Shown here in pieces: positions 8,927 to 17,495 of a stretch of 64,000 bases of DNA (the stretch's first letter is position 1; every line of letters starts with the position of its first letter). Source of the stretch: Paludisphaera soli (GTDB taxonomy: Bacteria; Planctomycetota; Planctomycetia; Isosphaerales; Isosphaeraceae); NCBI RefSeq assembly GCF_011064595.1, contig NZ_JAALJI010000003.1:186001-250000 (forward strand). The letters are read 5' to 3'. The position numbers and the translations under genes were made by a program. The notes beneath the pieces were generated by a model, which saw only the letters and a program-made list of their open reading frames with translations, searched no databases and was not told the DNA's origin.

Positions 8927-9089
8927 ACCGGCCCAGAGACCGGTTGCGGCGAATCCACCGAAAAAATCCGGGAAATCCGCGGCGGTGGACGTCCCGTTCC
9001 CTGCGGGGGCGAACCGTCCCCGCCCGCGGGCCCCGCATCGGCCCGCCCCGGGCCCGATCTCTCGTAACGGGATGGAAGAGGAAGCACCC

Positions 9090-11039
9090 ATGGCAAGCCG
9101 ACTCGGCTCGGGTTGGATCAACCAGGTGTCCCGGATCGCCGGGCCGACGCCCGCGGGACGTTTCGCCTCGTTCGCCGTGCAGGTCCACCGCGTCAACGCC
9201 CTGGAACCCAAATTCGAGCCCCTGACGGACGCCGAGCTTCGCGAGAAGGCCCACGCCCTCCGACTGCGCGCCCGGCAGGGCGACTCCCTCAACGCCCTGC
9301 TGCCGGAAGCCTTCGCCCTGACCCGCGAGGCCGCCAAGCGGACGATCGGCCAGCGCCAGTTCGACGTGCAGGTGCTCGGCGGCGTCGCCATCCACAACAG
9401 CTGCATCGCCGAGCTGGAGACGGGCGAGGGCAAGACCCTGGTCGCCACCATGCCGGCCTTCCTCAACGCGCTCCAGGCCAAGGGCGTCTACGTCGTCACC
9501 GTCAACGACTACCTCGCCCGCCGCGACGCCGAGTGGATGGGCCAGGTCTACCGCCACCTGGGCCTGACCGTCGGCTGCATCCAGACCGGGATGGCCGACT
9601 CCGAGCGTCGCAAGGCCTACAACTGCGACGTCACCTACGGCACCAGCAAGGAGATGGGCTTCGACTTCCTCCGCGACGAGCTGAAGCGGCTCCAGCTGGG
9701 CGACACCCATCGCAAGTCGTTCGAGCAGGCCTTCCTCGGCCAGGGGACCCATGCCGAGGCCGAGACTCCGGTCCAGCGCACCCACCACTTCGCGATGGTC
9801 GACGAGGCCGACAGCATCCTGATCGACGAGGCCCGCACGCCGCTCATCATCGGCGCCAACAACCAGCCGACCCAGGAGGAAGCCTCCGCCTACTACGGCG
9901 CCGACCAGCTCGCCGCGACCCTCGTCCGGATCAAGGATTACAAGTACGACCCGATCGAGAAGAAGGCCGAGCTGACCTCCGCCGGCCGCCGCAAGGTCCA
10001 GGCCCGCGCGGCGCATTCCTCGTTCGGAATGCTGACGGTGGACTCGCTCTACGAGTACGTCGAGCGTTCCCTCCGCGCCCAGATCGCCTACCTCCGCGAC
10101 CGCGACTACGTCATCCACGAGGGCGAGATCGTCATCGTCGACGAGTTCACCGGCCGCATGATGCCCGGCCGCCAGTGGCAGGACGGGCTCCACCAGGCCC
10201 TGCAGGCCAAGGAAAGGCTGGAGATCACTCTGGAGACGATCACCGCGGCCCGCGTCACGGTCCAGGACTTCTTCAAGCGGTTCAAGAAGCTCGCGGGCAT
10301 GACCGGGACCGCCACCACCGACGCCGCGGAGCTGCGGCGAATCTACAAGGTGGGCGTCATGAAGATCCCCACCAATCGCCACAACGGCCGCGTTTGGCTC
10401 GCCGACCGCGTCTTCTCCAACGAGGAGGAGAAGTTCCAGGCCGTCGCCGACCAGATCGTCGAGTGGAACAAGAAGGGGGCGCCGATCCTGATCGGCACCC
10501 GATCGATCGAGAAGTCGGAGCACCTCAGCGCCCTGCTCGCGGCGGCCGGCATCGAGCACCAGGTGCTCAACGCCAAGAACCACGAGATCGAGGCCCAGAT
10601 CGTCGCCCAGGCCGGCCAGAAGGGCCGCGTGACGGTCGCCACCAACATGGCCGGCCGCGGCACCGACATCAAGCTCGGCGAGGGCGTGGCGGAGCTGGGC
10701 GGTCTCCACGTCATCGGCACCGAACGCAACGAGTCGCGGCGCATCGACAGGCAGCTCGCCGGCCGCTCCGCCCGCCAGGGGGATCCCGGCATCTGTCAGT
10801 TCTTCGTCTGCCTGGAAGACGAGATCGTCGAGTCCTTCGGAGAGAAGCCCGCCAACCGCATCCGCAAGCGATACGACAGCCGGGGCGAGCTGACCAACGC
10901 CCGCTGGCGGCGCTTCTTCATCCAGGCCCAGGCCCGCAAGGAACGGCAACACTTCCGGGACCGCAAGCTCCTCATGCACTACGAGAAGCAGCGGGCCGAG
11001 ATGCGCAAGAACATGGGCCTTAATCCCGTGCTTGGCTGA
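9090..11039 (+). CDS. Short SecA-type translocase ATPase
   Basis: SecA-family motor of 649 residues. It shows the SecA Walker A (GEGKT, Lys115), the DEAD-like Walker B (VDEADSILIDEARTPL, about 237-252), the peptide-crosslinking domain, a linker region with FTGRMMPGRQW, and motor domain 2 ending in NMAGRGTDIKLG and GRSARQGDPG. It then stops about 100 residues later, so most of the helical scaffold/wing region, the C-terminal linker and the zinc-binding tail of a normal SecA are absent. ATG 9090 is chosen because AGAGGAAG sits just upstream; ATG 9072 in frame is an alternative. It is probably an accessory SecA (SecA2-like) beside a full-length SecA elsewhere in the genome, which is an inference. 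It follows murB-ftsQ. Confidence 0.88.
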   Translation: MASRLGSGWINQVSRIAGPTPAGRFASFAVQVHRVNALEPKFEPLTDAELREKAHALRLRARQGDSLNALLPEAFALTREAAKRTIGQRQFDVQVLGGVAIHNSCIAELETGEGKTLVATMPAFLNALQAKGVYVVTVNDYLARRDAEWMGQVYRHLGLTVGCIQTGMADSERRKAYNCDVTYGTSKEMGFDFLRDELKRLQLGDTHRKSFEQAFLGQGTHAEAETPVQRTHHFAMVDEADSILIDEARTPLIIGANNQPTQEEASAYYGADQLAATLVRIKDYKYDPIEKKAELTSAGRRKVQARAAHSSFGMLTVDSLYEYVERSLRAQIAYLRDRDYVIHEGEIVIVDEFTGRMMPGRQWQDGLHQALQAKERLEITLETITAARVTVQDFFKRFKKLAGMTGTATTDAAELRRIYKVGVMKIPTNRHNGRVWLADRVFSNEEEKFQAVADQIVEWNKKGAPILIGTRSIEKSEHLSALLAAAGIEHQVLNAKNHEIEAQIVAQAGQKGRVTVATNMAGRGTDIKLGEGVAELGGLHVIGTERNESRRIDRQLAGRSARQGDPGICQFFVCLEDEIVESFGEKPANRIRKRYDSRGELTNARWRRFFIQAQARKERQHFRDRKLLMHYEKQRAEMRKNMGLNPVLG

Positions 11040-14226: not shown

Positions 14227-14483
14227 CGCGAGCGACCCAGGCCGCCCGTTCGACGGTCTCGGAATCGCCGGTCAGTCCCTGGTGGGTCGAGGACATGGTC
14301 CCCGGGGCATGGTCCCGTGCCCGGCTGAACGGGGGTCCGAGAGGTCCGGTGGAATCTCAGCCGTCTTCATTTCGCGGAAATCCGTCACCGCAATGACGCG
14401 AGGTGCCACTCCCTGTCGAGCGATGGGAGGCCGCCCGGAGCGGCCCTTGGACGAATGGGACGGAACAGGACGGGGGGGGTTCG

Positions 14484-17400
14484 ATGATGTGCGAGGACCG
14501 GGCCACGAACTCGGACGCGGAGTTGTGGAGACAGGTCCGTGAAGGGAGTCATTCGGCGTTCGAAGAGGTCGTCGCACGCTACCAGTCGCAGGTGGCCGGG
14601 GTCGCCTACAGCACCTGCGGCAGCCTGACGACCAGCGAGGACGTCGCCCAGGAGACTTTCTGGGCGGCCTGGCGGCAATGCGAGACGCTCCAGGACCCGT
14701 CCCGTCTCGGCTCCTGGCTCTGCGGCATCGCTCGTCGTCAGGCCGCGAACGCCGCCCGCCGGTCGGCCGGTCGGACCTCGGTCGCGGTCGAACGGATCGA
14801 GGATCGCGAGGCGCCCGATCTCTCCCCCGTCGAGGAAGCCCTCCGGCGCGAGGAGGAAGCGTTCCTCTGGGCCATGCTCTCGGCGATCCCGCCGATCTAC
14901 CGCGAGGCCCTGGTCCTCTATCATCGCCAGGAACAGTCGGTGGCCGAAGTCGCCGCGAGTCTCTCCCTGTCGGAAGCCGCGGTCAAGCAGCGGCTGTCGC
15001 GGGGACGGGCCCTGCTCCGCGATCGCCTGGCCGACCGGATCGCCGACGGCCTGCGGCGAAGCCGTCCCGGCCGGTCGTTCACCGCCGGGGTGATGGCGGG
15101 GTTGTCCCTGGCCGCCGGCCCGAAGGCCGCCTCAGCTGCGGCCGCAGGCCTCGCCGCGAAGGCGGCCGTCGCCCCCTTCGCAGCCGGCGGCCTGCTCGGA
15201 ATGCTGGCGGGCCTCGGCGGCGGATGGCTCGGCGCGTGGCTGCCGGCCCAGGCGGCGCCTTCGCTCACCGAGCGCAAGCTCATCCTCCGGTCCGGTCGCC
15301 GCATGCTTGTGGTCTCGATCGGGTTCGCCGCGGTCATCCTGATCCTCGTCCGCACTTTGGGCGGGACTTCGGCCTATCTACCCGCGTGGCTCGTCGCGAT
15401 GCTCGCCTTCCAGGCGTGGGTGATCGGCGAGTCCTGGACATTGAGCCGTCGCATCCGGGAATTCCGCTCCACGCCTGTCCCGCCGGACGATCGGAACGCG
15501 ACGGCCGTGCGACGGGCCCTGGAATCATTGGTCCGTAATGTGGAGGGCCGAGCCTACCGAAGCCGGTTCCGATTCCTTGGCCTGCCGCTCCTCGACATCC
15601 AGGCGGGCGATCCCCCGAAGTTCGACCAGGAAGGACGGGAGTTGGAGCCCGCGGCCCCGCGAAGGACCGCCACGGGCTGGATCGCCGTCGGGGACGAGGC
15701 GCGGGGGGTCCTGCTGGCGATGGGCCATCGAGCCTTCGGCGGCGTGGCGATCGGCGGGGCGGCGGTCGGCCTCGTCGCCTTCGGGGGCGTCGCGGTCGGC
15801 CTGGTGGGGGTCGGCGGGGTGGCGGTCGGACTCCTCGCCGCCGGTGGGGCGTCCCTCGGAGCCCTGGCGATCGGCGGCCTGGCCGTCGGCGATCTCGCCT
15901 TCGGCGGGGCGGCCGTGGGGTGGAGCGTGGCCGTAGGCGGCCTGGCCGTCGCCAGGGAGACGGCCCTTGGGGGAGCCTCATTCGCTCGCCACGTGGTCGT
16001 CGCCCCGGAGGCCGCCGCACGGTTGCTGACCGGGAGCGAGATCGGCGTCCCCGCCCTCGATCGACCGATCGTCCGCGCCGCACGCTGGATGCTGGGCCAG
16101 GGTCGGCCGCTCGGGATCGGCGTCGGCGCGGTGGCCGTGTCCCTGGAGGTGCTGCGACTTCGAATCCTGTACCGGCGACACGCCGCGACCCCACGATCGG
16201 TCTCGAAGGCGCTTGGCCTGGCCTTGCTGACGGGCCTGGCCGGATGCTCCAGCCCCGCGTCCCCGGCCTCACCCACCCGGCTCCGGCTGGGCAACGGTCT
16301 ATCGGTCCTCTTGCGACCCGTGGCCGGGGCCTCGCAGGTGGCGGTCGTCGTCCTATACGATATAGGTGGCGACCACGACCCGGCGGGGCGTTCCGGATTG
16401 GCCCACTTGACCGAGCACCTTTACGTTACGGCCGCCGCGGGAGAGATGCCCGCCCGTTCGGCCCAGGATTTCTTCCAGCGTTATCCGGCGGGCTGTAACG
16501 CCCAGACGGGAGATCGTTACACGGTCTTCGCGACCGTCGGGCCTCCCGAGGACCTCGAAGCCCAGGTCGCCGAAGCCGCCGCGCGGATGGCCTCGCTCCG
16601 GATCACCGATGCTGACCTCGATCGGGAGAAGCCCCGCCTTGCGGCGGAACTGGCCTCCATGTTCGAGCAGTCGCCGAACCTGGCCGCGATCAACACCGCC
16701 CGCGAGGTCGTCCGACCGACGCCGAACGGAGGACGCCGGGGAGGCCTCGCCGAGCAAGTCTCGAGGCTCACGACGGGCGAACTCGTCGATCGCTGGCGAC
16801 GTTTCTACAAGCCGCGCAACGCCCGCCTCGTCCTGACCGGCGCGATCGACGCGGCCAACGCGGCGACCCTGGTCCGTCGCCATTTCGATGCGATCTCCGA
16901 GGGCGAGGCGGTCCCCCCGCCCGGCGACCCCGGCGCGATCGCGACGCCTCGCGAACGGCTCATCCCCCGTCCGCCCGGCGATCCGACCGTCGCCGCCGCG
17001 GCCGTCGCCGCGCCGCTCCCAGGGTCCCCTGGCTATGCGGAGTACCTCGTCCTCGGCGCCCGGCTGATGAAGGAGGGCCAGGACGGATCCGGCGGCGTGC
17101 AGATCTACATGCCGATCCTGGACGACCCGGCGGCGCTCGTCGTCTCGACCGTCGCGGCGGCCGGAGAGACTGCGGAGGAGGCTGCACGACGGCTGGACCG
17201 TCGTCTCACGCACATCGTCTCGGCCGAACTCTCGCCCGGCGAAGCTCGGGAGGCGCAGGCGACGTTGGGCTTCTTCCTCGGGACCTCCGATCTGCCCGAT
17301 CAAGCTTTGTCCGCCAACGTCTACGGCGTGGCGTTCACGCTCGGCCGCCGCGAACAACTCGGGATCGACCCCGAGCGGCTGAAGGGCGACTTCGAGCGAG

Positions 17401-17495
17401 TCACGCCCGAAAGCCTCAGCCGGATCGCTTCGGAAATCTTCGGCGAGTCGAGACGTGGATTGGCCCGAGTCGGCCCTCCGGGAGCCGCCCCCTGA
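14484..17495 (+). CDS. ECF sigma factor fused to membrane repeat region and M16-like zinc peptidase
   Basis: One 1003-residue reading frame. Residues 12-95 are sigma-70 region 2 (SEDVAQETFWAAWRQ) and 125-185 region 4 (an IPPIYREALVLYH helix, then VAEVAASLSLSEAAVKQRLS). Residues 200-255 and 275-318 are hydrophobic. Residues 417-490 are a decapeptide repeat of the GGxAxGxxAx type. Another hydrophobic segment ends in the lipobox-like LLTGLAGCSS (582-590). Residues 598-990 resemble an M16 (insulinase/pitrilysin) domain with HLTEH (His641, Glu644, His645) and Glu722, 76 residues after His645, the spacing expected for the third zinc ligand. The start is ATG 14484 or 14487. I see no stop or frameshift between modules. 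Planctomycete ECF factors with long C-terminal extensions are known; this peptidase pairing is the unusual part. Autoproteolytic or stress control is an inference. Confidence 0.82.
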   Translation: MMCEDRATNSDAELWRQVREGSHSAFEEVVARYQSQVAGVAYSTCGSLTTSEDVAQETFWAAWRQCETLQDPSRLGSWLCGIARRQAANAARRSAGRTSVAVERIEDREAPDLSPVEEALRREEEAFLWAMLSAIPPIYREALVLYHRQEQSVAEVAASLSLSEAAVKQRLSRGRALLRDRLADRIADGLRRSRPGRSFTAGVMAGLSLAAGPKAASAAAAGLAAKAAVAPFAAGGLLGMLAGLGGGWLGAWLPAQAAPSLTERKLILRSGRRMLVVSIGFAAVILILVRTLGGTSAYLPAWLVAMLAFQAWVIGESWTLSRRIREFRSTPVPPDDRNATAVRRALESLVRNVEGRAYRSRFRFLGLPLLDIQAGDPPKFDQEGRELEPAAPRRTATGWIAVGDEARGVLLAMGHRAFGGVAIGGAAVGLVAFGGVAVGLVGVGGVAVGLLAAGGASLGALAIGGLAVGDLAFGGAAVGWSVAVGGLAVARETALGGASFARHVVVAPEAAARLLTGSEIGVPALDRPIVRAARWMLGQGRPLGIGVGAVAVSLEVLRLRILYRRHAATPRSVSKALGLALLTGLAGCSSPASPASPTRLRLGNGLSVLLRPVAGASQVAVVVLYDIGGDHDPAGRSGLAHLTEHLYVTAAAGEMPARSAQDFFQRYPAGCNAQTGDRYTVFATVGPPEDLEAQVAEAAARMASLRITDADLDREKPRLAAELASMFEQSPNLAAINTAREVVRPTPNGGRRGGLAEQVSRLTTGELVDRWRRFYKPRNARLVLTGAIDAANAATLVRRHFDAISEGEAVPPPGDPGAIATPRERLIPRPPGDPTVAAAAVAAPLPGSPGYAEYLVLGARLMKEGQDGSGGVQIYMPILDDPAALVVSTVAAAGETAEEAARRLDRRLTHIVSAELSPGEAREAQATLGFFLGTSDLPDQALSANVYGVAFTLGRREQLGIDPERLKGDFERVTPESLSRIASEIFGESRRGLARVGPPGAAP

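Follow-up and report, generated by a model that had tools for sequence, protein, structure and literature searches.

Introduction

The activity of sigma factors of the extracytoplasmic function (ECF) type is normally under the control of anti-sigma factors and proteases that are proteins of their own. In the ECF41 group the extension of the sigma factor is soluble and is not an M16 peptidase. Here we describe a gene from Paludisphaera soli (Planctomycetota, Isosphaeraceae) in which an ECF sigma factor, a membrane region with a Gly/Ala repeat and an M16-type zinc peptidase are encoded as one chain. The gene lies on a stretch of 64,000 nucleotides (assembly GCF_011064595.1, contig NZ_JAALJI010000003.1, positions 186,001 to 250,000, forward strand), referred to as the window, and coordinates are counted from its first letter unless a locus name is given.

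Two related kinds of protein are already known, namely sigma factors fused to a membrane part and, in planctomycetes, ECF factors carrying long extensions (PMC8999054, PMC8567305). To the former belong IutY of Pseudomonas putida (ECF243) and the groups ECF48, ECF52, ECF53 and ECF36, which, like the window protein, hold sigma factor and membrane regulator in one chain. The window protein differs by its Gly/Ala repeat and its predicted outer M16 peptidase; in the available passages of PMC8999054 no peptidase domain is named for the IutY-type factors. With the planctomycete long-extension factors (WD40 type, ECF57) it shares the theme of a sigma factor plus a large extension (PMC8999054, PMC8567305). 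However, the window sigma is separated from those proteins by a 100/100 split in our tree, and it is a second kind of M16 fusion, type B below, that falls among them. For ECF41 the recognized sequence is given as TGTCACA-n16-CGTC, with TGTCACA as the -35 box, and neighbouring genes as the sole detectable targets (PMC3426412). The first box of the element upstream of the window gene is nearly identical to this -35 box, and the window sigma, likewise, has detectable candidate targets only in its own neighbourhood, but the second box of the element is YGCCAC instead of CGTC.

The bacterial single-half M16 proteins (4nnz, 3amj_C, 3eoq) share with the window protein the motif HxxEH-X76-E and both domains over about 400 residues; unlike them, peptidases of the window clade occur fused to an ECF sigma factor or encoded directly behind one. 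The fbcH polyprotein of Bradyrhizobium japonicum (cytochrome b and c1) likewise joins a membrane protein to an exported one in a single chain, which a signal peptidase separates, although there the parts are respiratory proteins and the enzyme is signal peptidase I, against a sigma factor and a lipobox in the present case. A fusion of sigma factor and M16 peptidase was not found in a full-text literature search, the main ECF classification papers lying outside its coverage.

Results

The gene starts with ATG at 14484, ends with a stop at 17493-17495 and contains no internal stops, giving a product of 1003 amino acids (aa). From an in-frame GTG at 14403 the product would have 1030 aa; as that codon falls within the conserved upstream element at 14383-14409, the ATG is the likelier start. 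The G+C content of the window is about 69%, and the genome, an 8-Mb assembly, is labelled G000 here. A first-pass annotation, made from the sequence letters alone, had read the frame as a fusion of sigma regions 2 and 4, a decapeptide repeat, a lipobox-like LAGC segment and an M16-like peptidase, and all of these parts were recovered. In a search of 59 genomes the same chain was found unbroken in four of the five congeners (G001, G002, G003 and G005; frames of 1019-1067 codons, 54-59% identity). A sequencing or assembly error, or a hidden frameshift joining two genes, which the annotation had kept in view, is thereby excluded in practice. Features of the gene are listed in Table 1.

All four Pfam domains of the window protein exceed their gathering scores, and TIGR02937 reaches 81.4 bits, where the cut-off is 42.9. 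No family of sigma region 1 or 3 was matched in Pfam at E values up to 1; the protein has regions 2 and 4 only and so belongs by domain content to the ECF type (sigma-70 group 4). The zinc motif consists of HLTEH at residues 641-645 and Glu722, with exactly 76 residues separating the second His from the Glu, as had been noted at first reading. The motif HxxEH-X76-E is kept in 13/13 clade members of the family and in all seven intact members outside it; the frame-broken copy at locus L071 was not counted, and in genome G326, which is in none of the trees, the motif reads HLLEH. Similarity to M16, the lack of which would have spoken against the annotation, is clear also at profile level, the clade profile matching 4nnz with E 8.5e-27 over positions 1-402 of 404. 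Five relatives were scanned with Pfam, and PF05193 was above the cut-off in all five and PF00675 in three.

Table 1. Coordinates of the fused gene, its parts and related fusions.
Feature	Position	Strand	Basis
Two-box element CGTCACC-N14-TGCCAC, predicted self-recognised ECF promoter	14383..14409	+	copies upstream of 12/12 orthologous sigma genes
Fused gene encoding ECF sigma, Gly/Ala-repeat membrane region and M16 peptidase	14484..17495	+	1003 aa; one unbroken frame, Pfam, congener chains
Sigma70 region 2 (PF04542)	14571..14765	+	residues 30-94, Pfam 9.1e-13
Sigma70 region 4 (PF08281, Sigma70_r4_2)	14865..15017	+	residues 128-178, Pfam 8.6e-11
Gly-rich hydrophobic segment, possible membrane segment 1	15180..15242	+	residues 233-253; conserved in type-A homologues, hydrophobicity borderline in homologues
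Two hydrophobic helices	15303..15428	+	residues 274-292 and 297-315; alignment and hydrophobicity of homologues
Period-10 GGxAxGxxAx repeat	15735..15983	+	residues 418-500; lag-10 identity; present in 12/12 type-A homologues
Last membrane helix, ending in the positively charged YRR	16107..16178	+	residues 542-565; alignment of homologues
Internal lipoprotein-type signal segment, lipobox LAGC, Cys588	16197..16247	+	fits PROSITE PS00013
Peptidase_M16 domain (PF00675)	16326..16670	+	residues 615-729, Pfam 1.1e-5; HLTEH 16404-16418, Glu722 16647-16649
Peptidase_M16_C domain (PF05193)	16767..17057	+	residues 762-858, Pfam 1.7e-6
Type-B fusions, ECF sigmas of other lineage with the same M16 clade	L041:190-2370, L042:7357-9582, L068:318-2609		sigma tree

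A search of 45 family genomes found 13 genes of the M16 clade in 12 genomes (E 1e-30 or better, at most 41 candidates scored per genome) and 12 genes with the membrane-repeat part, also in 12 genomes (E 1e-12 or better). Sigma genes of the window kind are called type A. Seven of the 13 M16 genes are fused to a type-A sigma (G000, G001, G002, G003, G005, G028, G059), two lie directly downstream of one, three are fused to other ECF sigmas and are called type B (G021, G060 and a second copy in G031), and one, in G014, is unlinked, no sigma being found within the surrounding 17 kb. In the two split cases the gene order is the same: in G009 the M16 gene adjoins the sigma gene with a stop/start overlap TGATG behind AAAGGAG, and in G031 the gap is 88 bases. 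Counted from the other side, the 12 type-A sigma genes comprise seven fused, two adjacent to M16 and three without it (G004, G018, G063), so the homologues are not always split, as the annotation had considered they might be. No M16 trace or remnant was seen behind the sigma gene of G004, a congener; in G063 the sigma gene is followed by about 800 bases before the end of the contig, and the M16 search of this genome was negative. About 200 bases behind its type-A gene, G063 carries a further ECF sigma gene in which Pfam finds regions 2 and 4 (L086:4316-4912). The fusion is unbroken in five of six genomes of the genus, that of the window included, and in two of three genomes of another genus, g7 (G028, G059).

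Outside the family, 392 genomes drawn evenly from the phylum were searched with four candidates scored per genome, and the clade was found at E 1e-45 or better in seven genomes besides G000. In these seven genomes and at locus L071 the M16 gene is unfused and no sigma gene stands directly beside it. In two of these eight stretches an ECF-like sequence was observed at some distance from M16: in G086 a gene about 4.5 kb away on the opposite strand, with regions 2 and 4 above the cut-off, and in G152 a stretch about 3.4 kb downstream on the same strand, with both regions below it. This divergent sigma-like stretch of G152 forms the end of a frame of 1091 aa (L099:1775-5047, minus strand) that lies behind the stand-alone M16 gene. 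An exported M16 encoded by itself was probably the earlier condition, and its close association with sigma factors probably arose in this family.

In the sigma tree, rooted at midpoint, type A and type B fall on two sides, each with 100/100. The type-B sigmas are placed among ECF proteins with long extensions, though the sigma of the second G031 copy has a long branch and its grouping with the other two is not firm. Eleven such long ECF proteins were chosen from these genomes by frame length, two further long ECF-like frames at locus L074 being excluded. Eight of them carry a recognised C-terminal domain (CarboxypepD_reg in three, DUF1559 in two, and STN, WD40 and AhpC-TSA in one each), and three carry none. 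Locus L074 (L074:2-8000, G047) itself consists of three consecutive long frames with ECF sigma similarity. Since type A and type B sit on opposite sides of the tree, two ECF lineages or more must have acquired M16 by fusion. Among the type-A genes, the fusions of g7 group with the split genes (98/98), and both in the sigma tree and in the M16 tree G028 and G059 stand beside G009 and G031 and away from the genus of the window. This grouping, together with the different joint of the g7 chains, favours a second, separate fusion event within type A, although one origin of the seven type-A fusions was not rejected in the approximately unbiased (AU) test (p 0.19). One common ancestor of all ten fusions was rejected (AU test, p 0.014), for a group that was picked after the tree had been seen.

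The conserved element upstream of the gene has the form YGTCACC-N14-YGCCAC and is present in front of all 12 type-A sigma genes, in ten exactly and in two with one mismatch (G059, G018), the spacing being constant. Its distance to the start taken for the sigma gene, which for G018 is one codon late, ranges from 70 to 255 bases, the outermost copy, at -255, being that of G009. The element was defined from an alignment of 11 upstream regions in which the boxes are in register in ten; the copies of G009, which was unaligned, and G018, which was absent from the alignment, are independent. At up to two mismatches it was missing in 7/7 control regions, one of which was only 189 bases long; the controls were three type-B fusions, two M16 genes without a sigma fusion of their own and two sigmas of family f2, with starts taken from the longest frames. 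Allowing one mismatch on both strands, 19 matches were found in 599,492 bases of loci, and 12 of these are the sigma sites. The window holds a single exact match, the site at 14383-14409; as three matches occur in the window at one mismatch against a shuffle mean of 0.76, the weight rests on conservation and not on the single window.

A profile of the 12 sites was run on 16 genomes, with the best 150 candidates scored per genome, at which depth weak sites could be missed. The sigma's own site ranked first in each of the 12 sigma-bearing genomes, with E 7.5e-5 to 0.019 for what are the training sites themselves. Among the matches listed, the next sites in these genomes begin at E 0.27, the best sites in the four genomes without a window-type sigma have E 0.049 to 0.85, and no second convincing target of the sigma was seen in the 16 genomes. 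A large regulon was considered and rejected: the strict pattern gave 3-13 matches in the 12 sigma genomes and 3-11 in eight without (reversed control, 0-4), and most of these matches are probably phrases of coding sequence unrelated to the window-type sigma. The element is thus probably a promoter recognised by the sigma itself. Because its own site is the best in the profile of all 12 sigma-bearing genomes, self-control of the sigma is likely, with no further target visible.

Downstream of region 4, hydrophobic helices align across the 12 homologues. Hydrophobicity was calculated by a rough script, and the values cover the homologues other than the window protein. The decapeptide repeat stands out clearly: residue identity at lag 10 is 0.34, beyond all of 2000 shuffles, whose best lag (3-24) averages 0.21 and reaches 0.31 at the highest. 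Against PDB the repeat domain gave a single match, at E 0.26. A stand-alone protein of 135 aa consisting mostly of the same repeat was observed in another family of the class (L085:1672-2076), with no Pfam family assigned. The last helix ends in YRR, YKR or YQR in ten of the 12 type-A chains and is lost in both g7 fusions.

The lipobox at Cys588 fits PS00013 and is internal to the chain. The pattern is found at the joint in four of the five congeneric fusions (G003 being without it), in none of the two g7 fusions and in none of the three type-B fusions; among the three split or unlinked M16 proteins only that of G014 fits. An internal start of M16 was rejected for the window genome, where no usable start codon is present: from the last membrane helix to the lipobox there is no ATG, no GTG and a single TTG, at residue 581, seven residues ahead of the Cys. 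Such a start is possible in G005 and, less so, in G001. In the G005 fusion (L035:7336-10353, minus strand) AAAGGAG stands just ahead of an in-frame ATG at the joint, near residue 580, which resembles a start site of M16 that was once used or still is.

The way in which sigma and peptidase are connected differs between groups. In the genus of the window the last helix is followed by a signal-like segment before M16, while in g7 both are missing and M16 comes directly behind the repeat. Type-B chains of G021 and G060 have one hydrophobic segment between sigma and M16; in the second copy of G031 the corresponding position shows a short run of hydrophobic residues that stays below the threshold. 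M16 proteins that are split or unlinked within the family, and those from outside it, start with a segment that by eye resembles a signal peptide, which makes an extracytoplasmic M16 likely, as had been proposed. All four arrangements can put M16 outside, provided that the repeat ends outside.

Elsewhere in the window, at 8985-11039, a SecA-type ATPase of 684 aa is encoded (SecA_DEAD 1e-107), which is short for a SecA.

Discussion

Sigma factor, membrane module and M16 peptidase probably form one envelope-signalling unit, since some relatives keep the parts as neighbouring genes. A functional tie between sigma and protease, suggested from the first-pass reading, is supported in that the fusion is kept in the genus, is found in g7 with another joint and beside split versions, and was apparently remade with another ECF lineage. 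Our preferred reading, to which we give about an even chance, is that of an autoregulated membrane-bound ECF unit which co-produces itself and an exported M16 peptidase. The N-terminal sigma would stay cytoplasmic, restrained by its own membrane region, i.e., the helices and the Gly/Ala repeat, with no separate anti-sigma factor. A signal from the envelope acting on the membrane part would let the sigma transcribe its own gene from YGTCACC-N14-YGCCAC, so that more sigma would be made together with more M16 peptidase. The peptidase would act on the outward side of the inner membrane or farther out, where it would probably cut peptides, either as an effector or as a sensor with feedback. The lipobox at the joint of four of the five congeneric fusions suggests that in the genus of the window signal peptidase II may part the chain, probably giving a membrane sigma and a peptidase lipoprotein, and such maturation would restore the two-protein state of the split relatives. 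The membrane part may also be cut by other proteases, since proteolytic activation of fused ECF proteins such as IutY is known.

A narrower form of this reading is a one-gene circuit, where sigma factor, membrane sensor and peptidase would be made as a polyprotein from a promoter that the sigma recognises as its sole strong target, signal peptidase II would part it into a membrane sigma and a peptidase lipoprotein at a fixed ratio of 1:1, and the peptidase would close the loop by degrading or processing the peptide signal; we regard it as possible but doubtful.

Several observations weigh against the autoregulated unit. The sigma-membrane part occurs without M16 in three of 12 genomes, one of them a congener, and M16 occurs without a window-type sigma in G014. 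As each is found alone, neither is essential to the other, and the three genomes without any M16 found suggest that the sigma-membrane part can probably work without it. The same G014 has a profile site at E 0.049. The boxes contain GTCAC and GCCAC, near-copies 21 bp apart, and the element could be an operator of another regulator. The first M16 domain of G009 and G021 is below the Pfam cut-off, though the second is above. The topology rests on the rough script, positive charges behind helix 3 conflict with a simple model of an odd number of helices, and two AlphaFold models, with mean predicted local distance difference test (pLDDT) values of 48 and 47, were too poor for use. Finally, the lipobox is missing at the joints of g7, type B and G003, and maturation by signal peptidase II therefore cannot be general.

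The first-pass annotation favoured another course, a self-contained system in which cleavage frees the sigma part; in this model the chain would stay whole and the tethered sigma would be let go when its own M16, or a protease triggered by it, cuts the anchor. M16 enzymes are known to enclose and cut short peptides and are not known for site-1 cleavage of membrane anchors, which counts against it. The peptidase and the sigma would also lie on opposite sides of the membrane, the chain shows no evident cleavage site, split homologues and sigmas without M16 exist, and signal peptidase II would detach the peptidase instead wherever the joint has its lipobox. On the other hand, the M16 motif is intact in 13/13, the peptidase is on a chain without a joint lipobox in the two g7 fusions, the three of type B and G003, and there are ECF proteins with a fused membrane part whose activation is proteolytic, e.g., IutY, linked to Prc and RseP (PMC8999054, PMC7593790). 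We consider self-release of this kind improbable. Slightly better placed, but still unlikely, is a role of M16 as a sensor, in which binding or turnover of peptides outside would reshape the chain and switch the sigma uncut, the peptidase being one of several exchangeable outer domains found on planctomycete ECF proteins. The recognised C-terminal domains of the 8/11 long ECF proteins, and the type-B M16 fusions within the same ECF group, agree with it; in split genomes, however, M16 is made separately and there is no chain to carry a signal, and the lipobox in the genus of the window would detach M16.

The fusion could also be neutral in itself, a read-through after loss of the stop between two co-transcribed, loosely linked genes. 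The joint retains the last helix and the signal segment as in the split state, and in G005 it holds AAAGGAG before an in-frame ATG, resembling a former start site. Against this, the fusion persists in five genomes at 54-59% identity to the window protein, is found in g7 with another joint, and was remade with ECF sigmas of another lineage group; a purely neutral origin appears about as improbable as self-release.

To return to the autoregulated unit, what is new here, within the scope of the literature search, is an ECF sigma factor fused to an M16 peptidase. Sigma factor, membrane part and exported peptidase have apparently been brought into one gene at least twice, with different sigma lineages, and this recurrence suggests that M16 peptidases are directly connected in function with the control of sigma factors. 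The conserved promoter candidate makes the regulation of this group of membrane sigmas accessible with a single reporter. If the lipobox is used, the window gene would encode a bacterial regulatory polyprotein that is split by signal peptidase II.

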